In this document: positions 14,629 through 64,000 of the stretch, piece after piece
Numbering within the stretch: the stretch's first letter is position 1
Layout: the number at the start of each line of letters is the position of its first letter
Assembly (NCBI RefSeq): GCF_012489685.1
Contig: NC_080046.1
Coordinates: forward strand, 41,503,176-41,567,175
Origin: Lotus japonicus
Taxonomy: Eukaryota > Streptophyta > Magnoliopsida > Fabales > Fabaceae
Direction: 5' to 3'
DNA: 64,000 nucleotides
The notes under the pieces: generated by a model
Databases searched by the model: none
What the model was told of the DNA's origin: nothing
What the model saw: only the letters and a program-made list of their open reading frames with translations
Position numbers and translations under genes: made by a program

Positions 14629-14701
14629 TTGTTTTTCACACCGGCCCAGATCACTGAACACTGTTAGGTGTGGTAATCAGAACTTGCGCTCTGATACCAA
14701 T

Positions 14702-29494: not shown

Positions 29495-30605
29495 GGAAGG
29501 TGAAATCGCGGGAAAATGAAAATTTCGCGATTCCGATTTTTGTAGCACGTTCACCGAAGAATTCTAAGAGAGATTTTGGCGTCAGAATTCCAGAACTCAA
29601 AACAAATCTCAGACATTTGGGAAAAACGATATCTAAAATCCCAAAAGCGGTGTAAGTTAATCTATCCCGAAAAACTACTTTTTGCTGTGATGGTCAGACG
29701 AAAAAACTTTGTTCTGGAGAAAGATTGGAAACGTCGAAACAAATCTGGTTGCGCAGACGGAAACTTCGTTAGAAGTCTCGAATAGAAAAAGTCTTCATTC
29801 ACTGATTGAATTTAGGGTTTCGAAGCAAAGAAATTAGCGTCGTCGAACATCCAAAAAGTGAATACTATCGTGCGTACAGTCCAGGGTTCCGAAATGAAAC
29901 GCTGGTCGAAGGAAAAATAGAGAGAATCTTTAAATTTTCCAAGGATTCGAAATCTCACTTAAATGTTGCTCTAAAAGCGAAATTAGCCTATTCTGGACAC
30001 GCTCGCCATAAGGCAGGTGTGCAGACGCCTCGCACGAATTCCTACCGCGACTACGCAACATTCCTCAAGCAATTCCTGAACTTTCTTCTTCATTAATCTT
30101 TCTCAAACATCAAACTCCTGTCACGCTTACACTGATTCTACGCGTGAGTCGGAAATTAACTTGTTCTGCAAAATCAGGTCTTACATATGGGTTGGGTAGG
30201 GGAGGTCCAGGGATCGATTCCTGACGGGTGCAATTTATCTTTTCGATGTACCAAAAAAAAAACAACATATTTTCATGCACTAAATTAAAATATAGTAATT
30301 TTGGAAACAATCCTGCACAGTGCATAGTCCCATCCCATGAAATTTTTCCTATTTTGAGTACCTAGATTTATTTTATCGTTAAATAAAAACTGATAAGGTT
30401 CATTTTATAGTTGGAATATTACGCTTATTTAGTACCACAACCGTAGAAACCTAAAATAGTAATGAATCAATTGAAATCGCGGTAAGAAATTTTGCAGTAC
30501 ACGCGCTTTTCGCTCCACCGGGGGTTGGAAATTCACCAACAGTCCAACGTAGTACACTGTCTCTCTCTCTGTCACAACCTGTGTAGTACAACGCAAATTG
30601 ACTCG

Positions 30606-30612
30606 TATAAAT
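30606..30612 (+). promoter_or_regulatory. TATA-like box upstream of ZIP gene
   Basis: tataaat 55 bp before the ZIP ATG (30667), after a CT-rich run at 30561-30572. If used, the leader would be very short and would still contain the out-of-frame ATG at 30626. The stretch 30273-30600 otherwise shows no gene. Confidence 0.4.
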
Positions 30613-30666
30613 CCACCCCAACACCATGCCATTGCCATCTCCGTCGCCGTTCAAATCCTCTTCTCA

Positions 30667-32539
30667 ATGGCTCTCCCTCGCCGCATCCTCTTCTTCTCTG
30701 TTCTCTTCCTTTTCCTCTTCCTCTCTGTTTCCGCTCACAGCGGCCACCACGACGACGACGACGACGGAGACGCCGATGCCGACGGTGCTCCCGACTTACG
30801 CGCGAGGCCGTTGGTTTTGGCGAAGGTGTGGTGTCTGATTGTGATTTTCTTTGCGACGTTTGTGTCTGGGGTTTCGCCGTATGTGTTGAAGTGGAACGAG
30901 GGGTTTCTGGTTTTGGGGACTCAATTTGCTGGTGGGGTGTTTCTGGGAACTGCTATGATGCATTTTCTTAGTGATGCCAATGAGATGTTTGGTGATTTGA
31001 CTGAGAAAGAGTACCCTTTTGCGTTTATGTTGGCTTGTGCGGGATACTTGCTTACCAATCTTGTGGATTGTGTGATTTCATCTATTTTGGCAAAGTCTCG
31101 CCGTGGTGCTGATGTTGAGAGTCAAGGTATTGAGATTTCGATTGGTTGCTTGCTGGTTAAATTGTCATATTGAATTGTTTGCTTTTGAAAACCATGTTTT
31201 CTTTTTTCATGTTTTTGAACAGTAGATTAAATTAGGTGAGGAGATGATCAAAAATGTTTTTGAACAGTGTAATGGGATAAAATACTATAGTTTCATGAAT
31301 TTTAGACTGATTGGTTGAAGTTAGTTGTGTCTTCTGATCATGCAATTCCATTTGATTTTGAAAATCAGTTTTTTTTTCCTGCTCTTGAAGTGTGTTATTA
31401 GTTATTACTATTTGGGATGATATGATTGCAAGGAGCATGATTCTCCTTACATACTAAGATTACAATTTGCATGTACCCCATGTTTTTTGATAGAGATTTC
31501 AAGGTGTAAAGAAAGTTGCCTGTTATGATGATTGAATGCCAGAAAAGAAAACACTGTTTGCTTTATTTCTGTGTGATTGTTTGGGTGATAGTAAGCCAGT
31601 AGTTGACATCAGAATTTCCTTAGTATTGTACTGTACAGGATACTACATGTGTTGTTCTATAGTGGAAATTTTTTAGTTTGTCATCGCTATCTGAGAACAT
31701 AGATTTCGGAACGAAACCTTCTCTCCCGATTTCGTCTCATTCCCGGTTTCACCAATCAAATTGTGTCACGGTGGAATAGGGAATGAGACACTAGATGGGA
31801 ACTGAGATTCTTCATCCATAGATTTCGTGTATTTTCCACCCAAAGCTACTAATTTGAGCTAACGGAATATGCAATTCTGCTAGAGTTTTTCAAACACGCA
31901 CTTAACAAATATGAATCTGTATTTGAACATTCACCTTGTCTAACACAAAGCTACTTAATTTGTTTTCTGGTTGCAGGGGATGAGACAGGCAAAGAAAGTG
32001 GCAATGGTGTTACTTCCCAGTCACAACACCACTCAGGAAACCATCATGCTATTGTATCTGTGAGTTCACTTGGAGACACCATCTTGTTGATTGTTGCCCT
32101 GTGTGCTCACTCAGTATTTGAGGGCTTAGCAATTGGAGTTGCTGAGACAAAAGAAGATGCTTGGAAAGCTTTATGGACAATCTGTCTGCACAAGATATTT
32201 GCAGCCATTGCCATGGGAATTGCTCTCCTCAGGATGATTCCTGATCGCCCCCTAGTGTCTTGTGCAATCTATGCTTTTGCTTTTGCTATCTCCAGTCCAA
32301 TTGGTGTAGCCATTGGAATTATACTAGATGCTACAACACAAGGTCATGTGGCAGATTGGATCTTTGCTATATCAATGGGTCTAGCTTGTGGAGTCTTTGT
32401 CTATGTATCAATTAACCATCTATTGGCAAAAGGGTACGTGCCTCAGAAACCAACAAAGGTTGACTCAGCCTATTTCAAGTTTCTTGCTGTTGTGTTGGGC
32501 GTTGGAGTGATAGCGGTTGTGATGATTTGGGACACTTGA
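30667..32539 (+). CDS. ZIP-family zinc/iron transporter (ZIP2/ZIP11-like)
   Basis: Membrane transporter moving Zn2+ (possibly Fe2+/Mn2+) into the cytosol. Two exons: 30667-31126 and 31977-32539 (intron GT...AG, phase 1), 340 aa, a normal length for plant ZIPs. Residues 1-23 form a signal peptide ([18 protein letters not shown]), followed by an acidic, His-containing stretch ([17 protein letters not shown]). TM1-3 lie in exon 1, including [17 protein letters not shown] short variable loop has His residues (HHSGNHH). Exon 2 holds TM4-8 with the ZIP signature [11 protein letters not shown] and TM5 [11 protein letters not shown], whose His and Glu residues are the known metal ligands. A frame opening at TTG 30598 is not a real start. 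The out-of-frame ATG at 30626 opens a 70-codon frame overlapping this start and could lower translation. Subfamily call is by resemblance only. Confidence 0.92.
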
Positions 32540-43311: not shown

Positions 43312-45530
43312 ATGAACTCAGGCGACCTCAACAAGGTTTGGGAAATCAATGCTCTGAAGAGGAAACCAAGGCCAGAAGAAGCCACAAAAATGCTGGAGAA
43401 GATCGCCAAACAGGTCCAGCCCATCATGCGCAAACACAATTGGAGGGTCAAGCTTCTCTCTGAATTCTGGTGTTCCAAAACTTCCTCTCTTTTTTTTTTT
43501 AATTTTTTTAATTTATTATCGTGCAATTCACTTCAGTTTTGTGTTTCCTATAATGGGTAGTGAAGGAAAATTGAAGTAATGGAGTTAGGGATAGGAAAGT
43601 TTTCAACTTGGAGTTAAAAACCACTGTTCTAATCAACCAACCATTGATAATGTTGTAGCACAATATTAGCAGCTTTTGTGTCTCCTTAGGAACCTGAATT
43701 AAGAACTTGCCCATGTGATTATTGTAGCCCAAGCAATCCGTCGATTCCAACCAGTTTCTTAGTTTTTTTAATTTGAATTTTGCTAATCAAAACAGAAGAT
43801 TATTTTGAGTAGAAACAGTGGTCTTGCTACTCATGCAGCTGTGTGATTTTGCTTTAGTGTAACACTCAAATGAATTTTGATTTTGGCTTGGGCAAGTCTA
43901 TTTTGATTTTCTATTTCTGGTGGAATGACTAAAGAACTTGCCCATGTGGTTGTATTGTAGCCCGAGCAATCCGGCTCTTCTTGGGGTGAATGTAAATGCT
44001 GGTGTAAATGTGAAGTTACGGCTACGGAGACCAAACAGGGATTCAGAATTCTACCCATTTGATGAAGTTCTGGATACAATGCTTCATGAGCTTTGCCATA
44101 ATGCCCACAGCTCTCATAATGCTGCCTTCTACAAGCTCTGGGATCAACTTAGAAAGGTTCTCCTTCTTCCTGTCATTTTGTTATTGACTAGGCAAAATGA
44201 TAATTATCAGATTTCTGGCCTTTTGTGATACAGTCTCTTTGCTTTAGACAATATCCTATTGGATTTTACAGGTCCTTTAGATAATATCTTACAATAGGGC
44301 AATTTTATTAGAATAATGGCTGTAAGTTAAAACATTGATTCACCATTGGTATGATAGATCATAACACTTGTTTACTGATGTAATTCTAGGCAGAAAGTTG
44401 TGTTTTTCTTTCTTAGCAAATTGTTAGATTTGCTTATTTGCTCTCTATCAATCCATTTTACTAATTATGCATAGGAATGTGAAGAGTTGATGGCTAAGGG
44501 AATAACTGGCTCTGGAGACGGGTTTGACGTTCCAGGGAAGCGTTTAGGTGGTAATTCCCGGCAACCTCCACTTTCATCTCTACGTAAAACTGCACTGGCA
44601 GCCGCAGAAAAGCGGTCACGATTGGGATCTCTTCTTCCATCTGGACCGAATCGTCTTGGCGGTGATAGCGCTATAATGGGGGCACTTAGTCCAGCGCAGG
44701 CTGCTGCAATGGCTGCAGAAAGGAGATTACAGGATGACCTATGGTGTGGTTCTCAATCTTGTGAACATTCAGATCATGAAAATGTTAACAATGAATCTGC
44801 TGAGAACATTGTACAGAAGCGGAAAATTGTTGGAAGCTCAAGATTAACAGACAATTCTACTCTACCTTCAGATCAAGTATCTAGAAAAAGAAGTTGTTCT
44901 AAGGACTCAAGTTTACCCGTTCATTCATCTGGTGCCCCGATATTTGTAAATTTAACTGCGGATGCACAAAAAATCGGATCTATCACTGAATATCAAATTG
45001 GATCTCAACAACGAAGTTTTGGATTAGAAAGGATTTCAAATTCTCAATCTGAATCTCAGGCTGGATCTAGTTCTGCAAATTTATCAAGCCTGCCTAGGCT
45101 ACTTTCTGGGGATAATAAAACATTTCATTCCGAAGAATCTGCAATGTGGGAGTGTCCGATGTGCACTCTGTTGAATCAAGTAAGCATCCAAATATACTGC
45201 ATTCTTTCATTGCAGACTATGTCTGTGTTGAGTTTCCTCGTAAAATGTTGTGTTGTGGCTTTATTCATTCTAAAGTATATAATGATCACTATGGTTGTTT
45301 AACATACTGCCTTTTCTAACGCATGTAATGGTGCTGGACCAATGCAGACATTTGCTCCTATATGTGAGTTGTGTGGCACGCAACAACCAAAAGATGTTAC
45401 CACCAAGTACAGCACTTGGTCTTGCAAATTCTGTACCTTGGATAACAGTGTGAAGATGGAGAAATGCTCAGCCTGTGACCAGTGGAGATATTCTCATGGC
45501 CCGCCAATGTCAGTCAACCTGGGTTCCTAA
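43312..45530 (+). CDS. WSS1: WSS1-like WLM metalloprotease with two RanBP2 zinc fingers
   Basis: Member of the WLM/Wss1 family, DNA-dependent proteases that clear DNA-protein crosslinks (known role of the family). Exons: 43312-43469, 43961-44156, 44475-45179 and 45348-45530, giving 413 aa. The WLM domain opens with VWEINALKRKP and holds the zinc-binding active site HELCHNAHSSH (His95, Glu96, His99, His105). Residues ~120-330 are a Ser-rich linker with SPAQAAAMAAERR and a possible SUMO-interacting motif (IFVNLT). Two RanBP2-type fingers follow: Cys345/348/359/362 and Cys379/382/393/396, the first split by the last intron. All catalytic and zinc residues are present and the frame is open, so the gene looks functional. 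A second, decayed copy lies at 55677. Confidence 0.92.
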
Positions 45531-46661: not shown

Positions 46662-47136
46662 TTTTGAGTATGTGACATTAAATGTTAGTATACAGGAGCT
46701 TTACATTGGCGCGCTACACCAAAATTAAACTTATAATTTCCATTTTCTCTAATTTCTTTAATAATTACTTATCTTTCATTACTTAAATTTTCCGCAATGG
46801 AGGCCAACAACAATTGTTAAAAATGATTATGTGAACTTTTAAGATAGAAAGTCCGATTCTTAGAGCATTTTCAGTTCAGTACCTTATGGTGGGATCTTAT
46901 CTTGAGATCACGTATCTTAAATTGTCTTGCATTGGAGCAAACTGATGTCGAGGATTTGAAATCTTATTTACGTTAGTATCATAGCTAAGACATGAGTAAA
47001 GCAAGAATAATAATTTTTTTTTTCTCTTTCATTCATGTGCATCCAGTAAACCCAACCAAAATGTTAAAAAATAAATAATATAAATATATGATATATTGTG
47101 GGACTCAGCGAAAAATGTGCACCCTTACGTTACTAC
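46662..47136. other. Intergenic, possible MITE debris
   Basis: Contains tcttagagcattttcagttcag (about 46859), a phrase type seen at MITE ends, but no matching partner was found. No gene. Confidence 0.4.
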
Positions 47137-47226
47137 TTACTAGTGGGAATTGGGTTTAACACCCCAGCCCTTAGGCTTCCCGCCACACTTAAAGTGGGGA
47201 AATTACCGGAAAGCCTCTGGATTAAT

Positions 47227-47273
47227 ATCGGTAAATGATTTTCCGATACGTATCGGTTTATCATTTCCCGATT
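47227..47273. repeat. Left subterminal palindromes of the MULE
   Basis: Two inverted-repeat motifs: atcggtaaatgattttccga (from 47227) and tcggtttatcatttcccga (from 47252). They match the motif repeated near the right end. Weaker ones follow at 47675-47689 (ggaaaatgtttttcc) and 47701-47715 (gggaaaacatttccc). Confidence 0.75.
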
Positions 47274-48046
47274 CGTATTGATATAACAGCATCAGATAGG
47301 TTTTGAAACACATAATTTTCAAAACCCATTTCCCTCCCCAAATCACTCCCTCTTCAAATCTCTCCCAAACTTGCGTTCCACCACTCCAAGCTTCGGTCCC
47401 ATCATCATCAAAGCTTCCTCAAAGCACCGGAACTCCCATTCCATTACATTCAAAAGGTAAGTTTGATTTTTATTGATTCTCTCACATTGATTGATGATTA
47501 GAGGTAGTTGATGGATTATTAGGTGAATGTTGAACACTAGGGTTGTTGATTATTGATTAGAGGTAGGTTTTATTGACTGAAATGGCATGAAACGGCCATG
47601 GGCACGAGTGGGTCGTTTCCAGTTCTGGTTCTGGATTACTGTAAAATCGAAAAAACATTTTCCGATTCTGTAATGGAAAATGTTTTTCCGATTCTGTAAT
47701 GGGAAAACATTTCCCGATTGTAAACCAGTTTAAGCCAGTTGAAGCCAGTTTTTTTAAGCCAGTTTTTTTTTAGTTTTCCTCCATCTATTGGGCTGAATAT
47801 TTTGTACAAATTTTCAAATATTTTAGTGTCATGACACTGGGAAAGGGTGTTGATGGTATCGGCTTATTAGAACTAGGGAACTTTCTTAATGTTGCATTTT
47901 AGTTATCTAGATTGACAAATTAGAAAGGGTGTTGATGCTATATGAGAGATGTTTGTTGCTATATGAGAGATGTTTGTACAAGTTGTAACTGTTAAAGTTG
48001 TTCAAGTTGTAATTTGATGTTAAATTTGTTTGCTTTTCATAGGAGA

Positions 48047-50324
48047 ATGAAGGGCGGGAGGAAGAGGTCTCGATCTTCTACAGTCGATGATGCAGAGGAT
48101 CGACACGAGCGCTTGCATGCTTCTACGCGGCGCGGCGACCATCGAGCAGCTAGTCAGGCGGTTGAGGCTTCGGCCCCGTCTCCGTCTCCGTCTGCTACTC
48201 CGGCCGGGGCTCCGTCTCCGTGTCCGTCTGCTACAGCTCCGTCAGGTGTCCATCTACTACAGCTCCGTCAGGTACTCCGGCTGAGCCTCAGCCTCATCCT
48301 ACTCCGGTCTCTCCGATGGTTGAGTTACCTCTTGAGGAGACATCTGGCGAGCAGTCTTCTTCGGAGCCCAGTGGCGAGGAGTCTACTTCTGAGACTGCTT
48401 CTGAGGCCAGTGGTGAGGAGGAGGAGCCTCTTATTCTCCAGGAGGAGATTGATGCTGCTGATGTGGTGCCAGAGGAGGGGGCACAGGGCGGTGCGGATGA
48501 CGACCTCATCCAGAGGGTGGCACCGTTTCCCGGGGGGCCTGAGGATCTTTCGCTTCTTGCGCATTATCCTGACCACAAGGCTCCTTGGACGTGGCAGGCA
48601 CTTCTTCGCACAGACCCGCGGTACGTGGACCGTCGGACATTGAGGGTGGCCACTGTTGGGGGGAAGGTATGGAACCTCCCCTGTGATGGCGATTTAGAGG
48701 CCCACACACATGTGCGACAGCTGCTGCAGCAGACGAGTTTGTATCACCTGCCTTGGTGCGGGTTACCGGAGACAGACCCAGCTGTCATACTGGCCCTTGT
48801 TGAGAGATGGCATGAGGAGACGAGTAGCTTCCACATGTCGTTCGGGGAGATGACTATCACCCTGGACGATGTGTCGGCTCTTCTCCATCTTCCCACAGGG
48901 TCGAGGTTCTACACTCCGGGCAGAGGGGAGCGAGATGAGGTTGCAGCGCTCTGCGCCCAGCTCCTGGGAGGATCTGTTGCTGATTATCTGGTTGAGTTTG
49001 AGGCGGCGGGTGGCCAGAACATTCGGTTCATTACTCTGAAGACCATGTACACGTCTGTTATGGATGGTATGTCTTAATCATTACTTTATTAAGTTGTATT
49101 TATTTTTAGCGTATTATTAATAACTGTTAACTTAATTCATTTCATTGTAGAGGGACACTATGAGGATGCTGCTAGGATCTGGCTGGTGAACCAGCTTGGT
49201 GCCACCCTCTTTGCCAGCAAGAGTGGTGGTTACCACACTACTGTCTACTGGATCGGGATGCTTGAGGACCTCGGTCGCGTGTCGGAGTACGTGTGGGGTG
49301 CGATTGCGCTGGCATCGTTGTACGAACAGCTGAGTCGTGCTTCCCGCAGGAAGACAGCGCAGATTGGTGGGTTCACCTCCCTCGTGCTGTCATGGGCGTA
49401 TGAGTACATATCCAGCAGCGTCATTATCAGGACGGAGGTCCCCGGCTACACACAGGACCAGCCTAGGGCGCAGCGGTGGTCCACGTCTCGGATCGCGCAT
49501 TCCGGACTCGATGAGAGACGAGTCATGCTCGATGAGCTTACAGTGGATGATATCACATGGACCCCTTTTGAGGACCATCGAGATGTTCGACAGCGGGATC
49601 CCAGGGCCCTCTATTCCGGCTACATCAGGACACCTTACGGCCGGTCTGTGAGCCGACATCTACCAAAGCGGGTTATGCGCCAGTTTGGCTTCATACAGGA
49701 CATCCCTCGACACCCCTCTGAGATCCAGACGACGGGGTCCCTTGCTGATACCACAGATGCTGCCTATGCTGAGTTTGAGCCGCACCTCCGCCCTCAGGGG
49801 ATACCTGCTACATATCCGGGAGAGGCGGTGGAGGGTTACATGAGGTGGTATAGCAGAGTGTCCCATGTGTTCATCATCCCTGAGGATAGGAGGGAGGAGC
49901 TTAGTGCCGTGGTAAGTTTGGATTCTAAACTTGTATATTATTTTTATTCATTCAATTGTGATTTTTGTTAATGAAATTATTTTTGTATATTATTTTTATG
50001 CAGTCTGCCATACGTAGGGGTGTGGAGTTGTTGGAGCAGTCCCTGGAGGTGTCAGGTGCTCTTGCTCCAGGGACACAGCCCCGAATCCTCACGGAGAGGG
50101 CGCTCGATCTCTTTCGACGGAGTTCCTTCGTTGGTACCCAGGGAGTTGCCTTTTCTGCTATTCGAGGAGCCGCAGCTGCGGGAGGCAGAGCTCGTGGAGG
50201 CAGACCCCGTGGAGGCGGAGCTCGTGGAGGCAGAGCTCGTGGAGAGGGTGATCCTGGAGAGGGTGTTCGTGGAGGTCGAGCTCGTGGACCCAGAGGTCGC
50301 AGGGGGCGGGGTCGGGGAGAGTGA
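48047..50324 (+). pseudogene. Plant mobile domain (PMD) gene with RG-rich tail, one frameshift
   Basis: Encodes a PMD protein (the family of MAIN/MAIL1 and PP7-long forms, many copies of which are transposon-borne). Exons 48047-49066, 49151-49911 and 50004-50324; a 5'-UTR intron (about 47456-48042, gtaagt...cattttcatag-type end) precedes the ATG. The N-terminus is a basic and Pro/Ser/Ala repeat region, then acidic (SGEEEEPLILQEE). The PMD core includes LPWCGLPETDPAVILALVER, FGEMTITLDDVSALLHLPTG and, in exon 2, YWIGMLEDLG. The C-terminal ~55 residues are Gly/Arg/Ala repeats ending RGRRGRGRGE, likely nucleic-acid binding. A 1-nt frameshift inside the PSATAPSG repeats near 48243 separates the start from the core; a polymorphism or sequencing slip is possible. 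Otherwise the frame is open (~700 aa). Confidence 0.8.
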
Positions 50325-50568
50325 TTTTATTACACTTATTATGTGGGATCCATTATTATGTATATGTTAGGACTTTTTATGTTATGTTATGACTCTTGCC
50401 TCGTTTTATTTACATGTGTTATATTTTTAGTCTTAATATTATGACTCTTATAATGAAAAAAACAGAAACAACGACAACATATAAATAATTCAAAGCATGT
50501 ATTAATCCATGACAATAAGTTAAACGGTTACACAATCAAATTAAACATAAGCAACACCGAAAACAAAA

Positions 50569-51326
50569 TTATTCCTCTGTGATATCGATGAAGTCATGGG
50601 GTCCGCAATCTTTTGGGAATACCTTCACTAGGTTGGGCAATGTTATATTAAGATAACAAACAGTTCCTCTAGGTGCAAACACAGCAACCTGCAAGTGAAA
50701 TGTATACTTTAATTAAACCATGCTTAACTGTCCAAAAAATGAAGCAAGTTTCATGTTTAGGTTTCAGACCTTTTGGAGAACGAGAACAGATCCAACAGTT
50801 ATGTCATTCGCAAATTCACTGTGAGTAAAGGCCTTGCGGTGGATGCTAGCATCAACAGCACCCGTGGGGTCCTAAATTTTTGAAATCGTTTGAGAAGTAA
50901 ATAAAAACGGTTAGTCAAGGGGGACCAAAAACAAGGCCTTACAAAAGCAAGGACAAGACATACCTTGAGGGTAACTTTCGCATCTCCAAACCCATTGGGA
51001 GTGCAAGATTTGATAACAGCAACAACATTCTCCACCCTCTCAACGTTCGCTCTCAGAGAGCCCAGCGGAGTGGCTATTCCCCACTCTTGCAGGGCTGATA
51101 GCCAAGCATGTGAGTTGAAATCATGATCGGTTTCGGTTGATCCATGATCTAGCACACGCCTCACGATTTCCTGGGTCGGAATGAGTGGTGTGTTAGGGGT
51201 GGATCTACGGGCATACATGGCAGCCTGGATGGCGCCAGCCGGGCCAGGAATAAGAGGACGAGAGCTGCCAGAGTTGTTGCTTTGACCTTTGCAATGGCGG
51301 AGGAATGGATTTGGGTCTTGTTCCAT
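50569..51326 (-). CDS. HROB: HROB-like OB-fold protein carried by the MULE
   Basis: Resembles the homologous recombination OB-fold protein HROB, which in other eukaryotes works with the MCM8-MCM9 helicase in break repair. Three exons on the minus strand: 51326-50964, 50871-50770 and 50688-50569, all GT-AG, 194 aa, no stops or frameshifts. Residues 26-37 are the conserved IPGPAGAIQAAM motif. About 100-185 form the OB-fold: VIKSCTPNGFGDAKVTLK, DPTGAVDASIHRKAF, VGSVLVLQKVAVF and CYLNITLPNLVKVF. It is shorter than cellular HROB, keeping the motif and OB-fold but little else. The gene sits tail-to-tail with the PMD gene and in line with the transposase gene. I infer capture of a host gene; function in the transposon is unknown. 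Confidence 0.8.
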
Positions 51327-51418
51327 TGTGTAGAATGAGGAGTAAGAAGAAGAGGCAAGACACAATAGACAGGAAGATGAGGAATGAAGAGTAAGAAGAA
51401 GAGGCAAGACACAACAGA

Positions 51419-51426
51419 TATTTATA
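51419..51426 (-). promoter_or_regulatory. TATA box of HROB-like gene
   Basis: Minus-strand tataaata about 93 bp before the ATG at 51326, the usual place for a plant core promoter. Nearby (51345-51415) a ~50-bp stretch with agaagaagaggcaagacaca is duplicated. Confidence 0.6.
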
Positions 51427-51728
51427 GCTCAGGAGTGCGGTCAAAACATTTAAGGTGTACTGGTGGATGGTAGAAGAGTGGTTGGGGCTGGTGGTTGAGA
51501 GTAATGTCAGGGTTGGTGGTGGAGGGTAATGAAAATGAAAATGACAAGAGTACATCAAATTAACATTACCAAAAGTACATCAAATTAACATTACCAAAAG
51601 TACACGCATGAACCTGCCAATCTACGATGATGTCTAGATTTTCATCATCAACAACAACCTGTGATAAGGTCCACATTCTACCAAATTACAGAGAGTTTAC
51701 AAATTAATATTACACAATACAAGAACAT

Positions 51729-54700
51729 TCAATCTGTGGTGATGTCCACATAGTCCGCATGACCACTAAAAGCACCAAGCCAAACTTGGAATTGTGCATC
51801 ATACATGCCTAAACGTGGACCATATAGGTTGCGCCAGTATTTGGAGGCAAGATCAGCGTGCCAATCCCACTGGGGAGCAATAGTCGGCATAGGATGTCCA
51901 GGAGTTAATTGGAGCTGCATTTTAGAGAATAACCATAAAATTAGATAACTTCCACATACAAAAATTAATCGACAAGCTAGTAGGCAACTAAAATATTAGT
52001 GTATTTGGTCAAAATATACCTGTACCCAGTGATTTATCACATGTCCAATAGCTATAACAGTATGCTCATCTCGTAGGCCGACTCCTATCAGTGGAAAGTA
52101 TGTGTTACAACCCATAGAGGATAAGGATACGAGAACCAATTGGTACTTTGTGGCAACAAGGTATCCCATCTCTGGCAGTTGAAACCATTTGTCAGGGGTG
52201 ACCGGGTCACCAATAGGAAGAGTGAGACGATCATGTAAGCCATAAACAACATCTGTGCCCCACATCCTATTATACATTAACACATTGGTCTCAAGTTCTT
52301 GTATCAATGAAGCCCTAACCCAAGGCCAACCGTCCTGACCGGCGGAATGCCCCAGTAATGCAGCAATGGATCTATAGCCACAGTTACCATCATCCTCAAC
52401 ATCTGTAACTGTGTCAATATATGGATGGAGAAAGGCTGGAAAGTTACACATGAAATGGCTTGTATCAGACTTCTTCACACGCTTCTTCCTCTTTGCTGGT
52501 TGTGAAGACTTCTTTTCCTCTTTAATCTTCTTGTCAGTAAGTTCAAACGCTGAAGGATCACGAGTCAAGGATCCTATTGCTCGACCCTTGGGTTGTTTGC
52601 TCTCCTTCAACTTAGCAGTGCGGTTGGACTTTATCCGAAGCTCAGGAGTACATAGTGTACTCCTTTCAGGACAATATATCGCCTGAAGCTTCCTCCTTAC
52701 CATACTCTGCTCTCCAGTATCCAAAGAATGGAAATAACGTGTCAGTGCCTCAACTTCTGGGTGCATCTCTCCATGGTTTAGTCCGCAAATATCTGAGCTG
52801 CCAGTATCTGCAACAGGTACATGCTCCCAACTTAGGCTCTTCCAGAATGGATGAATGGCCTCGTACGGAATCCTCTCATAATCTGCAAGTTCACAGACAT
52901 GTTACATTGAATCACAAATATAAATAATTGGAATTAGTTGACAGGAGAGTGGTTGACCGGTAACCTGCAAGTTGACAACCGCAAGGTAGTCCATGAGTCT
53001 CTCTCAATAAGCAATCGCATCTGCCGCCGCAGGCGCGCATTCTTGTCAGTTCAGCATCAATGAGTTTCAGGCATTTGATTGACACAAATCCCCTAATATT
53101 TGTGTAGAAAGGGGTCTTGAAAAGGTGATCAATTTTATTCATACTGCGCTCAAACGATGCTACTATCTCAGTGTGACGATTGGTGGTCAAACTATGCGAC
53201 GCATCCCATGATGTGGCCAGGTCACCCTTACTGTTCCGCAACATCAACTTCAAGCTGGCATGTGCACCTTCAGCCCTGCAAACCAACAACGCACATGTAA
53301 GAATTAATACTGTAATAATCTATGAAATGAAATACATATAACAAGTCATAACATAATTTTTGTACCTGTTACTTGTTGTTGTTCCAAAATGCATCACATG
53401 ATTTGTCCATGCCTTGGCAAATTTCTGCTTGTGGACCAACCATGTAGTAGAACAATAAGTGGCAAATTTCAACTTGTGTTTATGCTTGCACATGTTAAAC
53501 AATTCAATCCAATGAGCTTCAAATTCTGGAACTGTTGGAGCATCTACCAATTCGGCCCACTTGTCCATAACCTCTTGAGCAAAATCATCCGTGCCAACAT
53601 ACTCTTTGCACTTTGCCAAAACACACTTGTTGATGTGCCACAAGCATAGTAAATGGGTGGTGGTGGGAAGGCTTTGTGAAGCAGCACTCAATAAGGCAAG
53701 ATCTCTGTCCGTCACAATCACTCTAGGCAACCTGGATTGGTCGGAAATCAGAGACTTCATACACTCCAATGCCCAAATGTAGTCATCTGTGGTCTCACTG
53801 CCAATGTAACAGAATGCTATTGAGTATGTTTTATCCGTGGAGGTCAGGCCAACAATCTCGAGCAAGGGTAGTTTGTATTTGCTGGTCTTGTATGTGCAAT
53901 CCATGATCTCACATATGGGAATGTGTTGAAAAGTTTGACGGCATTCGGATGAGCCCAAAATATATCTCTAATCACTTCCGATCCGGGTTCATTTCGTTCG
54001 AAGTGAACATACTTCTCACCGTCCAACTTCTTCAGCAAGTATTGTATCTCTGTCAGTGACCCACGAACGGATTGTCTGAACCGCTTGCAAACACCATAAA
54101 TTTGTTGGATGGTAGTCAAGTTTGAAGGATCTTTTTCCTTCAAGGACGCCAACATCTTTCTAGGTGGAACCCAAGTCTTAGCCTGATTTATCACGTCCTC
54201 CTTCGCCTCACTATTCAGTCGACCAACGTAATTGTGGTCAAGTAGTGACTCAGCTGCGAGATGGATGTGTCTACCGTCCATCACCTTCAACCACCAACCT
54301 GTATCATCTTTCGTACGTCGTCCTTTTAGCCTAAAAGGGCAACCTGTCTTTTGTGTTGACGTTCCTTCAACAAGATCCGGTTCTCTGTAGGGAATATACG
54401 CACCATGCTTCTCACACCCCAGAATGACATATTCTTTTCTTCCCTTCGCACCACTATCAGACTTTGTTGTCACCAAAACAAAATTATTTGCCATAGAAAT
54501 GTCGCGAACCCATTTCATAAGATCATCTTTCAAAGGGAAACGCTGTTTCAGGATAAACAAGGCATAAGGCATAAAACAAGGCATAAACAAAGCAAACAAA
54601 GCATGAAAAAATTTGTGCAATGAGTACCTGATCAGTATGATACAAATGAGAGACATCTATAGATATAATCGGAGGTTCAGCTAGTGATGGTTGCTCCTCT

Positions 54701-54768
54701 GGATTATCATTTTCCAATCCAGCAGCATGTATCAATTGTGATTCACCAAAAAAAAAGGACTCTGTCAT
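51729..54768 (-). pseudogene. FAR1/MULE transposase fused to an OTU protease domain
   Basis: Minus-strand gene with exons 54768-54628, 54542-53366, 53275-52965, 52882-52020 and 51914-51729, plus a 5'-UTR intron (54996-54771); ~892 aa. Order: N-terminal tail; FAR1-type DNA-binding region (WVRDISMANNFVLVTTKSDS, CEKHGAYIPY, KTGCPFRLKGR); MULE transposase core (MDCTYKTSKYKLPLLEIVG, VIVTDRDLAL, HLLCLWHINKCV); SWIM zinc finger (CDCLLRETHGLPCGC); Lys-rich linker (KRKKRVKKS); OTU cysteine protease domain (DVEDDGNCGYRSIAALLG ... NHW) with candidate Asp, Cys (~711) and His (~828). A single 1-nt frameshift near 53911, between FNTFPYV and the MDCTY motif, breaks this copy; the rest is open. The OTU part is joined by splice phase, not a separate gene. 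Confidence 0.85.
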
Positions 54769-55017
54769 CCCTGGAACAAAAACGGTAAATCAATAACCGA
54801 CCCTATTACGGTAAATAAAATTCCGGTACTATAACGGAATATCATAATCCGATACATTAACGGAAAATCATTTACCGATTCAGTTCACGATACAGCAGCC
54901 TAAATTACCAACTTAACTAACTAAACTAACTTCTTAAACTAACAACTAACTACTTAAACTAACTATAAATAAAGTACCAAAGCTAACACCACTTACCAGA
55001 AGTTAAAAGCTTTCCCT

Positions 55018-55075
55018 TGGTGGTGGTGGTGTTGGTGGTGGTGGTGGTGGAAATGTGGAGATGGTGGTGGTGGTG
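55018..55075. repeat. (GGT)n low-complexity run in transposase leader
   Basis: ggtggtggtggtgttggtgg-type triplets in the 5' UTR of the transposase gene; related G-rich runs continue to about 55205. The Pro/Thr-rich frames here are composition artefacts. Confidence 0.75.
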
Positions 55076-55236
55076 GGAAGGTGAAATGTGAGGGAGGAGT
55101 GGAGTAATGGTAGAATAAGGTAGTTTGGGCGAGTTATGGGGGGCTGGTGGGGGGTTGTTGGAGGGAGGAGTAATGGTGGAGGGGTTGGTGGAGGGAGGAG
55201 TAATGGTGAAAAGGTGATCAAACTGCCAGATTACCA

Positions 55237-55398
55237 ATCGGTAAATGATATACCGATATCAATATACGAATCGGTTAATGATTAACCGATATTGTTCTTC
55301 GTGTTCTGGGTAATGGGATAAAAGTGTTCATACTGAGGAACAATAACGGGAAATGATTTACCGATTGGTATTTTGACATCGGCAAATCATTTACCGAT
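55237..55398. repeat. Right subterminal palindromes of the MULE
   Basis: Four inverted-repeat motifs: 55237-55257 (atcggtaaatgatataccga), 55270-55290 (atcggttaatgattaaccga, perfect apart from the centre base), 55345-55366 (acgggaaatgatttaccgat) and 55378-55398 (atcggcaaatcatttaccga). Related, looser motifs (cggtaaatcaataaccg, ccgatacattaacgg, ggaaaatcatttaccg) lie at 54784-54880. Candidate transposase-binding sites. Confidence 0.8.
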
Positions 55399-55478
55399 GG
55401 GTAATTTTGGAATAAAAATAAAGGCTGGGGCGCGTAGCCTAAAGGGTGGGGTGCCAAACCCAAATCCCCTTACTAGTG

Positions 55479-55676: not shown

Positions 55677-58317
55677 ATGAACTCCGGCGGCAGCGGCGGC
55701 GGCGACGTCTACAAGGTTTGGGAAATCAAAACTAACAAGAGGTTGCCAAGGGAACAAGAAGCCAGAAAGTTTTTGGAGGCGATCGCCAAAGCGGTCCAGC
55801 CCATCATGCACAACCACAAATGGAGTGTCAAGCTTCTCTCTGAATTCTGGTTTTCCAAAACTTCCTCTGTTTTTATTTATTATCCATGCAATTAACTTGT
55901 TTTTTGTGTTTCATTTAATGGGTTGTGAACCAAAATTGTAGCCACTGAGTTAGGAGAGGAAAGTTTTCAACTTGGAGTTAAAAACCACTATGCTCTATCT
56001 TTGATAATTTTTTAGTTTAGTTATTTTGGATTGGCTTTTTCATCGGTTAACTTTAGTTAAGTCATATTTAACATTGTGCCAACATGTTTATATTTTACAT
56101 TCATTTGAATGGAATATTGACGTTAAAGTAAGTTAAGTGTGTGTTTGAATTTCTGTTGAACTCAACGTGTTGAAGTCAATGTATCAAAATTTTGCTACTT
56201 TAGTCCACGTTAAACTCAATGTGTGAAATTCTAGTTTCCCCATTGGTGCATTGGTATATGTGAAATCACGCCAAAATAGACATGCACTTACTCTAGGCCA
56301 ACATATCCCCAACTGCTCCATTGAAAATTGTCAAACACATTCATTTTGTAAAACTACTTTATACTAAATCCTCTAAACTTAAATCACATTACATTAACAT
56401 TTAACTCACTTTAATGAAACTCAGTTTTTAAAACTCAAGTTGACATAAACTTAGTTTTGTAAACTTTAATCCAAACATGCACCTAATCTAATTGGGCCCA
56501 GAATTTGTCTTAAGAAGGGGCTGTTGTAAGTACAACGTGTTCAGAGGCAGATTCAGAACAATTTTTTCTTTATTTTTGAATTTGATTTTTTCTAATAAAA
56601 CAGAAGATTAATTTGAATAGAAACACTGGCCTTGCTACTCATGCAGCTGTGTGCTTTTTGCTTAATGAAACGATCAAATGAATTTTGATTTTGACTTGTG
56701 CAAATCTATTCTGGTTTTCTATTTCTTCTGGAATGACTAAAGAATTTTCCCATGTGATTGTATCCCAAGCAATAAGAGGTATTTGGGGTATAATATTGGA
56801 GGTGGTCAACATGTGAAGTTGTGCCTAAGGAGGCTAAAGTGGGATTGGGAGTGGGACCATTGGAAGTTTCTCCCATTTGATGAAGTTCTGGATACGATGC
56901 TTCATGATCTTTGCCATAATGTCCACGGTCCTCGTCATAATGCCGCCTTCTACAAGCTCTTGGATCAACTTACAAAGGTTCTCCTTCTTCCCATGATTTT
57001 GTTTTTGACTATGCAAAATGATCATAATCAGATTTCTGGCCTTTTATAAAGCACTCTCTTTGCTTTAAAGAATCTCCTTTTGGATTTTGTAGGAGCTTTA
57101 GGGAACATCTTACAATAGGGCAATTTTTATTAGAATAATAATGGTTGTAAGTTAAAACATTGGTTCACCAATCACCATTTCTTATGATTGTACAAACCAC
57201 TTGTTTACTGAGGCAAATTGTATGCAGAAAATTGTGCTTTTCTTTCTTAGCAAGTTGTTATGTTTTCTTGATTGATCTCCATCAATCCATGTTAGTTATC
57301 ATGCACAGGAATATGCTGAGTTGAGGCCTAAGGGAATACCTGGCTTTGGAAATAGGTTTGATCTTCCAGGGAATACCTGGCTCTGGAAACAGGTTTTGTT
57401 CTAACTAAACACTTGTTTACTGATGCAAATTCTAGGCAGAAAATTATGTTTTTTTTTTATTTCTTAGCAAGTTGTTATTAGATTTGCTTATTTTCTGTCC
57501 ATCAATCCTTGTTACTAATCATGCACAGGAATTTAATGAGTTCATGGCTGAGGGAATACCTGGCTTTGGAAACTGGTTTGATCTTCCAGGGAGGCGCTTA
57601 GGTGGCTATTCTCCGCAACATCCTTTTTCAGCTGCAGAAAAGTGGTCACAAGTGGGATCTCTTCTTCCGTCCGGACCAAGACCGAAACGTCTAGGCGGTG
57701 ATATTGTTACAATGGAGGCACTTAGTCCAGCACAGGCTGCTGCAATGGCTGCAGAAAGGAGATTACAGGATAACATATGGTGTGGTTGTGAACATTCAGA
57801 TCATGAAGATGAAGATGTTAGCTATGAATCTGCTGAGAATATTGTACATAAGCGGAAAATTGTTGGAAGCACAAAACTAACAAACAATTCTACTCTACCT
57901 TGGGATCAAGTATCTCAAAAAAGAAGTCGTTCTAAGGATTTAATTTTACCCATTCACTCATCTAGTGCCTCAATGTTTATAGATTTAACTGAGGATGAAC
58001 AAGAAGTTGGATCTATCACTCAACATCGAAATTTCGGACTAGAAAGCGTTTCAGATTCCCAATTCAATTCTCAGGCTGGATCTAGTTCTCATTCCGAAGA
58101 ACCTGCAATGTGGGAGTGTCCGATGTGCACTCTGTTGAATATGGTAAGCATCCAAATGTATTGCATTCATTCATTGCATACTTTCTTTATGTTGTTACAT
58201 ATTATGACATGTTGCCTTTTCTAATGCATGTAGACAAGTGCTTCTATATGTGAGTTCTGTGACACACAACAGCCAAAAGATGTTACCACCAAAGTACAAC
58301 AACACTTGGTCTTGTAA
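55677..58317 (+). pseudogene. Decayed WSS1 paralogue (WLM metalloprotease)
   Basis: Tandem copy of the gene at 43312, same exon plan: 55677-55849, 56764-56977, 57529-58143 and 58234-58317. Four lesions or changes: (1) the acceptor before exon 2 reads gattgtat where the intact gene has tattgtag, so the AG is lost; (2) the active site reads HDLCHNVHGPRH, replacing the catalytic Glu by Asp and adding one residue before the third His; (3) a partial extra exon-3 start lies at 57309-57405; (4) a 4-bp net gain in exon 4 shifts the frame and stops it at 58315-58317, removing the second zinc finger. The linker keeps a strong SUMO-interacting motif (MFIDLTEDE). Most likely a pseudogene, though a scaffold-type product cannot be excluded. 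Confidence 0.8.
56137..56482. mobile_element. PIF/Harbinger-like MITE in paralogue intron 1
   Basis: Ends GTGTGTGTTTGAATT and, on the opposite strand, GGTGCATGTTTGGATT, with taa on each side (56134-56136 and 56483-56485). 346 bp, absent from intron 1 of the intact WSS1 gene, so inserted after duplication. Confidence 0.5.
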
Positions 58318-61796: not shown

Positions 61797-63924
61797 ATGA
61801 CTGTAAACGATCGCTGTTTCGTGGAATGGAAAGAGCAGTTCGTTTCGCAGGAGCGTGGCAATCGTGTGGTTCACTATTACCTGAAGGATTCTGGTGGGGA
61901 ATCCGTCCTTGCAGTTGTGGGCACTGAGAGGAGTGTTAGACACATGTGCTATGTTGCTGCTGAGGAGTTCCTTGAAATTTGTGGGAAGGAGGGTTGCGTT
62001 CCAGCTGGTTTCAAATGGAGATCTAGAAGAGAGGTGGTGGATTGGCTGACATCAATGCTATCAAAGCAGCTTGTGCAGGGAGAAAGAAGTGGTAAGTTGA
62101 TACTTCTTACTTCTAATATTGCCAGGCGCTTTCATTTATTCTATTTTGGTTATTGTAGGTTGAACCATAATTTGCAAAATAGTATAAGGATGCTATGGCT
62201 TTACAAGCATCAAATATTTTGGATAATGAACGATGATATGTGTTTTTTATGTAAGACAATCATATGGATGTGGTTCAATAAATATTTTGTGGAATTTTCT
62301 GTAAAGGAAGTGCATAATAATGTACAAGCAAATGGATTTTTGGCAAACTTTTATTGTCTTCAATATCTCCGTCATTATCATATTTTTTGTGTGGTTAAAA
62401 GTCTGTTATGCATGAAGTTTGGATCGGAGAGCTCTTTTGCACTGACAATTTTCTTTGATATTGTCTTTATTCTTTCTAATTCCTGTTCTATAGGGGGATA
62501 TTTAGTCCGTCTCTCTACTAGGAATTTTCTTCATTCTAGTCAAATACTTCTTTAATGACTCCTTAAAACCCAGCATATGTTCTCAAGCAGAAAAAATAAT
62601 AGTGGAAGTTCATCTAAGATCTCATTAAACATTCTGTCCCCTTTTCCTTTTGAATTTCAAATCACAGGATCGCCTGGTCATAATTTGGCTCTACCTCATG
62701 AAACCTCAAATGGCTGTGAAAATGATGGTACTGCTCTGTCTGCTCAAATAGCAGATCACAAGGTAAATCCCTTTGTTTCTTTTCCCTTTTTCTTACTTTC
62801 TCTATTTCCCTTTATCGTGTTTCTACTAAATGTTCTTAACATGCACATACTTGTCTTTCTCAGGACATTCTATTGAGTAACTGCAAATTGTCCACTTCAG
62901 ACATTGTTTGGTCAGGAGTTGCGTGGACATGTGGAAAACAACTGAAGCATTATCCTGCCTTTTGCAGGAATGGCATCAAAATAGCGGTGCGGAGCCCTTG
63001 AACTAATATGCATCCTTAACAAAAAAAAATTTGACCTGCTCAAAAGAAGTTTCATTTTTTACATGAGCAAAATATTGATTTGACATTTTCAATGTTTCTG
63101 ATGTCCAGATTCAATCCTTTGTTTTTGTAATGGGAAAGGAAGAGAAACATTTTGTGGCTTATTTAGAGGATATGTATGAAGACAGGAGGGGGCAGAAAAA
63201 GGTTAAAGTCAGGTGGTTTCACCACAATCAGGAAGTCAAGGGTGCAATTCCTGTCCGGAATCCTCACCCTCGGGAAGTTTTTATCACGTCTTATTCTCAA
63301 GTCATCAGTGCAGAGTGTGTTGATGGTCTTGCCACAGTCTTAACTCGTGAACACTATGAAAGATGCATGCCCTATTTTTCTCCCACTTCAACAGACAGAA
63401 TACATTTGTGCTTTAGACAATTTAAAGGCAACAAAGTTAAGCCCTTTGACCTGAGTAAACTGCGTGGCTATTATGCTCAATCAGTTCTTTCTTGCTTGCA
63501 CCTTGATTCTAACCAGAAGCCAGAGAAGAGCAACAACCTTGCAAGAGAAGATGAGGATTTGGGCGTAGGTGATGATGCAAAGTTGGGAGCCAAGAGGAGC
63601 AGAAGTGATAGGGGGTCTCCTCAGTCTCGGATTGGTCGGCGGGGAGTTAGGAAGTTAATTAGAAGTGAGCAAATGATGGTACACGAGATGTTCCAGGTTG
63701 TAAATTATGGTAGCCCAGATCAGAGATTGCTTTCTCTGAAACAGATTGAATTCCAACCTTGGAATAACCCCACATACAAGGTTGATGACAAGATAGAGTT
63801 GCTCTGTCAGGATAGTGGCATCAGAGGTTGCTGGTTCAGGTGCACAGTTGTGCAGGTAGCCCGGAAACAGTTGAAAGTTCAATATGATGATGTTCAGGAT
63901 GAAGATGGAAGTGAAAATCTTCAG
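61797..63924 (+). CDS. BAH and Agenet domain protein, 3' end beyond window
   Basis: Chromatin-associated protein of the plant BAH-Agenet type. Both domains are known readers of histone tails, so a nuclear role in gene silencing or activation is likely but inferred. Exons seen: 61797-62091, 62668-62762, 62864-62986 and 63109-63924, all GT-AG and in phase (443 residues so far), with a donor (gtataa) at 63925, so the gene continues. Exon 1 encodes MTVNDRCFVEWKEQFVSQER. The BAH domain starts in exon 3 (DIVWSGVAWTCGKQLKHY) and fills the first half of exon 4 (HFVAYLEDMYEDRRGQKKVK, VRWFHHNQEV, HPREVFITSYSQVISAECVD). A basic linker (KRSRSDRGSPQSR) leads to an Agenet/Tudor-like domain (YKVDDKIELLCQDSGIRGCW). 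The frame open upstream to 61734 begins with TTG; the first ATG in it is 61797. Confidence 0.88.
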
Positions 63925-64000
63925 GTATAATTAATCTCTTGAGGTCTTCTAACTTCATTTTTTTATATTAGTACTTGGTGCTATGTTTAAATATGTACAT

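Follow-up and report, generated by a model that had tools for sequence, protein, structure and literature searches.

Why should a plant transposon carry a copy of a host recombination gene? This question is raised by a 64,000-nucleotide stretch of Lotus japonicus DNA (contig NC_080046.1, positions 41,503,176 to 41,567,175; hereafter the window, numbered from its first letter), in which positions 47145-55468 are a complete Mutator-like element (MULE) of 8.3 kb. The element holds three spliced genes: a PMD gene on the plus strand and, convergent with it on the minus strand, an HROB-like gene followed by a transposase-OTU gene that adjoins the right end. The novel component is HROB; both a PMD gene beside a MULE transposase and an OTU domain on other transposons were already known. 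The best explanation that we can offer, and to which we give an even chance, is a three-gene MULE whose captured HROB stimulates long-tract gap repair after excision.

A trimmed HROB inside a complete element

A first-pass annotation, made from the sequence alone, had fixed the ends of the element by a 9-bp target-site duplication (TSD) and terminal inverted repeats (TIRs), and had placed three spliced genes inside, two of them with a single frameshift. Both points hold. The duplications CTTACTAGT at 47136-47144 and 55469-55477 are identical, and imperfect TIRs of about 44 bp, placed by aligning the two ends, lie at 47145-47188 (plus strand, beginning GGGAATTGGGTTTAACACCCC) and 55425-55468 (minus strand), their alignment scoring 108 against a maximum of 48 in 300 shuffles. 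In the window copy the PMD and transposase genes carry one frameshift each, and the HROB frame is open. The closest proteins to the window's genes are from L. japonicus, at 94-97% identity.

The HROB-like gene (50569-51326, minus strand; exons 51326-50964, 50871-50770 and 50688-50569) encodes a protein of 194 amino acids with an IPGPAGAxQAAM motif and an OB-fold. The HROB profile PF15072 matches it over its complete length (85/85, 1.3e-29), and the predicted model of a 94% identical protein, P0001, has a mean predicted local distance difference test score (pLDDT) of about 90-96 over the OB part. The 50 listed of the 1213 matches to that model are largely OB-fold proteins (RPA1, LysRS, HIN-200, SSB), with low TM-scores for the model as a whole (0.30-0.41); a search of HROB against PDB sequences returned three chance-level matches and nothing more. 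All seven aligned Lotus rows, the window included, have lost both ends of fuller plant HROBs, namely the WExLDVDDSDL stretch on the N-terminal side and the tail PQWTDEQLDELFAFD at the C-terminus, and retain the IPGPAGAxQAAM region and the OB-fold. The 194-residue protein is best classed as HROB-derived rather than as a full-length HROB orthologue.

Where did this gene come from? In a tree of 38 rows (the window and 37 chosen from 93 matches, rooted by hand on Wolffia and Ananas), the seven Lotus rows form one clade (100/99) inside the legume HROBs; its neighbours there are Sesbania and Trifolium, a placement of moderate support (87/78). This single clade within the legume HROBs points to one capture, and the introns of the gene suggest that it took place at the DNA level. 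The association is apparently old. Transposase P0122 (LOC130736031), about 50% identical to that of the window, and HROB P0013 (LOC130736032) have consecutive locus numbers on contigs of equal size, and they thus appear to be linked. In a quick tree the five nearest Lotus transposases group into a single clade, with P0118 (the window's type) and P0122 on either side of its deepest split; since HROB appears to be linked on both sides, it probably joined before that split. Other predicted proteins run across the borders of the three genes: P0019, from another copy than the window's, joins transposase exon 1 to HROB exons 2-3 and may stem from a read-through transcript, P0096 is a PMD running into antisense HROB exon 2, and P0101 is a PMD joined to sequence that lies between HROB and the transposase. 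In Trifolium subterraneum, the tail of the MULE transposase P0150 reads as an antisense PMD core (22-27 of 35 positions compatible over the nine PMDs tried, 18-21 in shuffles), which suggests that the transposase and antisense PMD pair predates Lotus and that HROB arrived later.

HROB-like genes are also multi-copy in Tanacetum and Artemisia (proteins among P0034-P0092). Six Tanacetum rows are named 'transposase, MuDR, MULE transposase domain protein', and five rows from the two genera form their own clade within Asteraceae in the HROB tree. Given this separate multiplication, HROB may have been acquired by transposons on more than one occasion. Three of these proteins (P0064, P0085 and P0092) share an N-terminal stretch of no recognised family; its reading as a MuDR N-terminus had no support from Pfam, and a match between P0058 and P0108 (E 0.004) is taken as chance. 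No report of HROB in a transposon turned up in literature searches of open-licence papers, nor when a 2026 gene-capture review was searched for the relevant words.

A young family with signs of selection on its genes

The family is young and recently active, and is probably autonomous. At least 40 copies, the window included, share 99-100% identity over a 645-base transposase exon; they are the best 40 of 401 genome-search candidates, and this count is a lower bound. We examined 20 of the other 39 copies whole and the remaining 19 at the expected HROB region only. Copies with the same genes, order and ends, for which the first-pass annotation had proposed to search, are readily found: 15 of the 20 whole copies retain nearly the full length and the three genes in the same order, 16 have perfect and mutually different 9-bp TSDs (the other four match at only 5-6 of 9), and the ends are alike in most and damaged in three. 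Over the 16 near-full-length copies, the window included, the frame is open in 10 for PMD, 9 for transposase-OTU and 14 for HROB, and six copies have all three open. Two copies on different chromosomes, L016 and L020, have a single difference in 8,346 sites; the family has therefore moved recently. A sister group (L010, L012 and L024), about 95% identical to the other copies, has the same gene set and a different left end, its first ~560 bases being only 75% like that of the window.

The remaining five whole copies (L013, L014, L015, L021 and L028) carry internal deletions that remove HROB and part or all of PMD; in four, the 3' part of the transposase is gone as well. At its expected place in the 40 copies, HROB is near complete in 26, partial in three and not found in 11, where 'not found' in the short stretches may also mean displaced. 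Thus, all or part of HROB is absent from that place in 14 copies, and the five of these that were seen whole are the internal deletions.

Is HROB kept by selection, or does it merely travel? Across all pairs of the 16 copies, the ratio of replacement to silent polymorphism (pN/pS) is 0.23 for HROB, 0.56 for PMD and 0.60 for transposase-OTU, with 1.73 for the OTU part alone. We further compared the variants present in at least two copies with the expectation from the family's own noncoding mutation spectrum. Shared HROB variants are short of replacements, both in the 16 copies (none against six silent, p=3.8e-4) and in the 26 (one against six, p=0.002, with 73% replacement expected), the singletons of the latter set being 25:10. 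The same holds for PMD (53 replacement to 38 silent, p=0.005) and for the transposase before the OTU part (7:8, p=0.019). It does not hold for the whole transposase-OTU gene (20:10, p=0.19, not significant) or for the OTU part, where 13 replacement and two silent variants give no purifying signal within the young family and point to relaxed or changing selection. The singletons of the 16 copies fit neutrality in every gene. Selection on the transposing lineages, with single copies left to decay, would give this combination of constrained shared changes and neutral singletons.

The first-pass annotation had named purifying selection on each gene as support for its reading; shared changes bear this out for HROB, PMD and the transposase before OTU, and do not for OTU within the young family. 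The absence or decay of PMD and HROB in other copies, which the same annotation took as the sign of accidental cargo, is not the pattern found: of the 26 near-complete HROB copies 23 have an open frame, the shared HROB variants are those given above, and private changes look neutral. In lineages that have spread, neither HROB nor PMD has the look of accidental cargo.

A comparison over longer distances gives a related picture. We asked where HROB changes between Lotus subfamilies fall relative to columns conserved in 15 other plant HROBs, the 'host' rows being picked by name and length, not by locus. Replacements are in short supply at conserved columns between the window and P0004 (14/74 versus 49/113, p=5e-4) and between the window and P0006 (12/74 versus 48/113, p=2e-4), and the test gives p=0.03 for P0004 against P0006, while HROB changes within the window's own subfamily do not avoid conserved columns. 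Transposase and OTU changes between the window and other subfamilies likewise avoid conserved columns (p<=2e-6; 2.5e-8 to 1e-18 for the transposase part). For PMD, avoidance is seen against P0104 (p 1e-3) and P0105 (p 1e-6), is not significant for the window against P0097 or P0098 (p=0.10 and 0.23), and the other pairs are mixed. Neutral evolution would be predicted to put about 8 stops into PMD (at 72-74% identity) and 10 into the transposase (at 75%); both frames are still open at ~50-75% identity, in a comparison that uses annotators' predicted proteins, which favours open frames. As for HROB, selection seems to have preserved a working gene in the spreading lineages.

A possible role for HROB in gap repair

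MULEs gain copies despite excising themselves, and this gain is thought to rely on host gap repair. The IPGPAG motif of the plant proteins we tentatively take, from its position and from the human sequence, to be the counterpart of the MCM8-9-binding motif of human HROB. The transposon protein would then be trimmed to about the part that activates the MCM8-MCM9 helicase in human HROB. In the human protein, a C-terminal part with motif and OB-fold (391-580) activates MCM8/9 (PMC10400076), the OB-fold is required for helicase stimulation and plants, most of which have MCM8 and MCM9, are predicted to share the MCM8 contact (PMC11055865), and loss of HROB impairs especially long-tract gene conversion (PMC7290032).

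In the mechanism that we propose, the transposase, with its DNA-binding N-terminus, DDE core, SWIM-like motif and OTU fold, would cut and insert the element. HROB, captured once within legumes and trimmed to motif and OB-fold, would give a small protein that binds host MCM8-MCM9 and acts in trans. Excision would leave a double-strand gap, at which the trimmed HROB would stimulate long-tract repair synthesis; because an 8.3-kb gap needs such synthesis, a trimmed and activating HROB would favour refilling. The element would thus be copied back from the sister or the homolog, with a net rise in copy number, and repair that broke off early would account for the internal-deletion copies observed. 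It is tempting to speculate that the transposon carries its own recombination co-factor, with HROB driving host MCM8-MCM9 through a long-tract copying of the element into the gap and turning cut-and-paste into effective copy-and-paste; this wider proposal we advance tentatively, thinking it rather more apt to fail than to hold.

Several observations speak against a gap-repair role for HROB. Since 14 of 40 copies miss all or part of the gene, an element can do without HROB in cis. DNA transposons that have no HROB commonly show internal deletions as well. The shared HROB changes are few (seven), the stop-free test is weak for this gene (P 0.07-0.32), and the HROBs of P0002 and P0003 look like neutral decay. 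Moreover, Lotus database clusters hold 66 HROB members versus 229 for PMD and 233 for the transposase, in sums made by hand that include isoforms and fragments.

How do other explanations fare with the same evidence? The trimmed protein might be a competitive inhibitor that occupies MCM8-MCM9 and steers breaks away from host recombination. Such a role would fit the loss of the N-terminal WExLDVDDSDL stretch and of the C-terminal tail: human HROB contacts RPA1 through two acidic motifs in its N-terminal third (PMC7290032), and the plant stretch may do the same. However, the Lotus proteins keep both motif and OB-fold, which together activate the human helicase (PMC10400076), and not the binding motif alone, and we consider inhibition unlikely. 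A repurposed OB-fold protein, unconnected with MCM8-MCM9 and partnering the transposase or PMD through DNA or RNA binding, might bind the ends, guide target choice or counter silencing. The nearest folds to the predicted model bind nucleic acid (RPA1, lysyl-tRNA synthetase, HIN-200 and telomere-end proteins), and the arrays of palindromes in the element, described below, could be what is bound. Yet OB-folds look alike whatever their ligand, and the IPGPAGA motif upstream of the OB-fold has been retained with it; repurposing, too, strikes us as improbable.

A further idea is that HROB and PMD travel along by accident, like the cargo of Pack-MULEs. Capture of gene pieces by MULEs is frequent (PMC13317346), and the 14 copies without a whole HROB speak for this idea too. 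Nevertheless, replacement changes are depleted among the shared variants of both genes, which disfavours this idea; PMD and the transposase stay open in predicted proteins at ~50-75% identity, and two transposase lineages, ~50% identical, apparently each have a linked HROB. Nor is this a Pack-MULE in the sense of a non-autonomous element without its own transposase, as a transposase gene is present. We regard the passenger explanation as very improbable. An assembly artefact or chance, by which three unrelated neighbours were mistaken for one element, is refuted by the 15 further near-full-length copies in the same order and the 16 different perfect TSDs among 20; we found nothing in its favour and give it practically no weight. 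Among these explanations, it is the captured HROB stimulating long-tract gap repair that we prefer.

The partner genes and related transposons

The PMD gene (48047-50324, plus strand; coding exons 48047-49066, 49151-49911 and 50004-50324; frameshift near 48247) is the companion commonly seen with plant MULE transposases. It has a 5' untranslated intron at ~47456-48042, read by eye, and matches PF10536 at positions 16-346 of 347 (6.4e-47). Its C-terminal tail (~50181-50321) is RGG-rich, with 7-9 RGG or GRG in the four listed Lotus transposon PMDs and 0-2 in each of the other ten PMDs listed from legumes, and could bind RNA. The role of PMD probably lies in chromatin or silencing.

The transposase-OTU gene (51729-54768, minus strand; exons 54768-54628, 54542-53366, 53275-52965, 52882-52020 and 51914-51729; frameshift near 53917) matches the MULE transposase domain PF10551 at 5e-23 on the read-through product and 9.4e-24 on one exon piece. 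Exon 53366-54542 (minus strand) holds the N-terminal region and most of the DDE core. The first two residues are the D of IMDCTYK and the D of VTDRD, and the third, in the next exon, is the E of NRAEGAH; their catalytic roles, like those of the OTU Cys and His, are presumed. The N-terminal region of relatives matches AFT/FAR1-type DNA-binding domains, the window itself reaching only 0.03 for AFT. The SWIM-like motif CDC...LPCGC has Cys in place of the last His of CxCx(n)CxH, and Pfam gave no SWIM match, nor any Ulp1 match in the element, at E<=1.

The C-terminal region (51729-52460, minus strand, one intron) has an OTU fold, with Cys 711 (DGNC) and His 828 (NHW) in the spliced product. It matches nothing in Pfam or PDB sequences, including PF02338 at E<=10, and its identity is settled by the fold alone; the PF02338 profile may be too narrow for this branch. 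In 22 relatives searched by pattern, the Cys motif is kept in 17, reads Ser or Tyr in two (P0124 and P0139) and is unmatched in three, one of which, P0122, reads NGNC by eye. Databases name MULE-OTU proteins 'PKS-NRPS hybrid synthetase cheA-like', and our searches of open-licence papers found no report of OTU on plant MULEs. The domain might remove ubiquitin from the transposase or from repair factors.

These assignments change how the cargo is to be seen. The first-pass annotation counted four distinct accessory activities; PMD, HROB and OTU are indeed present, whereas the SWIM-like motif is an ordinary part of the transposase and OTU is fused to it. Its 'coordinated cargo set' keeps HROB as a new partner and loses PMD, whose place beside a MULE transposase was already known (PMC6446971, PMC5418596). 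With the SWIM-like motif ordinary, the PMD pairing known and OTU fused, the set reduces to HROB, and a joint role of the cargo in chromatin, repair and ubiquitin control may be imagined.

Several known elements share parts of this design. In MULEs described from plants a PMD gene can accompany the transposase, frequently in antisense orientation (PMC6446971), and Ikeda et al. 2017 reported MULEs that captured PMD-C genes, with fusions in grasses and Amborella, and proposed an anti-silencing function (PMC5418596). They resemble the Lotus element in the MULE transposase (theirs with a SWIM-type motif, that of Lotus with a SWIM-like one), the 9-bp TSD and the PMD on the opposite strand; in contrast, the parts of these two papers available to us report no HROB, and the Lotus element has a third gene between PMD and transposase. 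VANDAL elements, which carry VANC and KIU/Kaonashi (Ulp1) genes, are also multi-gene plant MULEs in which extra genes, a protease-type capture included, serve the element; they are described as non-TIR, whereas the Lotus element combines TIRs with PMD, HROB and OTU (PMC13317346). Ginger1 transposons carry OTU or Ulp1 at the transposase C-terminus, for which their authors suggested a link to DNA repair, but their transposase is unrelated and Gypsy-integrase-like, and those tabled there are in animals (PMC2836005). With HROB itself (also MCM8IP or C17orf53), the Lotus protein shares the HROB domain and the upstream conserved motif; it differs in having no acidic N-terminal stretch or C-terminal tail and in being a multi-copy, mobile form of 194 residues (PMC7290032, PMC11055865, PMC10400076). 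Finally, Pack-MULEs similarly hold a host gene inside MULE ends, while the Lotus element has its own transposase and a cargo that is under selection and apparently old in the lineage (PMC13317346).

The element also carries copies of a 17-bp palindrome, CGGNAAATSATTTNCCG: five at 47229-47716 (0-2 mismatches) and eight at 54783-55396 (0-3 mismatches), the first four of the latter spaced exactly 26 bp. All 13 matches in the window at up to three mismatches lie inside the element, where shuffles expect 1.6, the search pattern having been composed only after the repeats had been noticed. They are likely protein-binding sites, as candidates read from sequence. The window holds no second copy of the element (blastn, E<=1e-3), and Rfam and tRNA scans of it gave no matches. 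The element lies ~209 bp upstream of the ATG (55677) of the stretch 55677-58224. This stretch and 44475-45302, which has a WLM domain (Pfam 6e-7), are alike by eye and resemble a tandem pair; two tested pieces of 55677-58224, one in a different frame from that ATG, had no Pfam match. Elsewhere in the window are Copia-type retrotransposon pieces (11736-14676; gag and integrase, Pfam), open reading frames for a ZIP zinc transporter (30553-32539; domain at 31853-32539, the first piece, 30553-31173, placed by eye) and an open reading frame with BAH and Agenet domains (63079-63930, Pfam).

What would a transposon-borne HROB under selection mean? If our explanation is true, the dependence of MULE copy gain on gap repair becomes testable with one gene, and the Lotus protein offers a natural minimal HROB for MCM8-MCM9 biochemistry. 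Moreover, the family resides in a model legume, where some of its copies differ by one base and some have every frame open. It would follow that transposons can adopt recombination factors that act after RAD51, and not only anti-silencing and protease genes.

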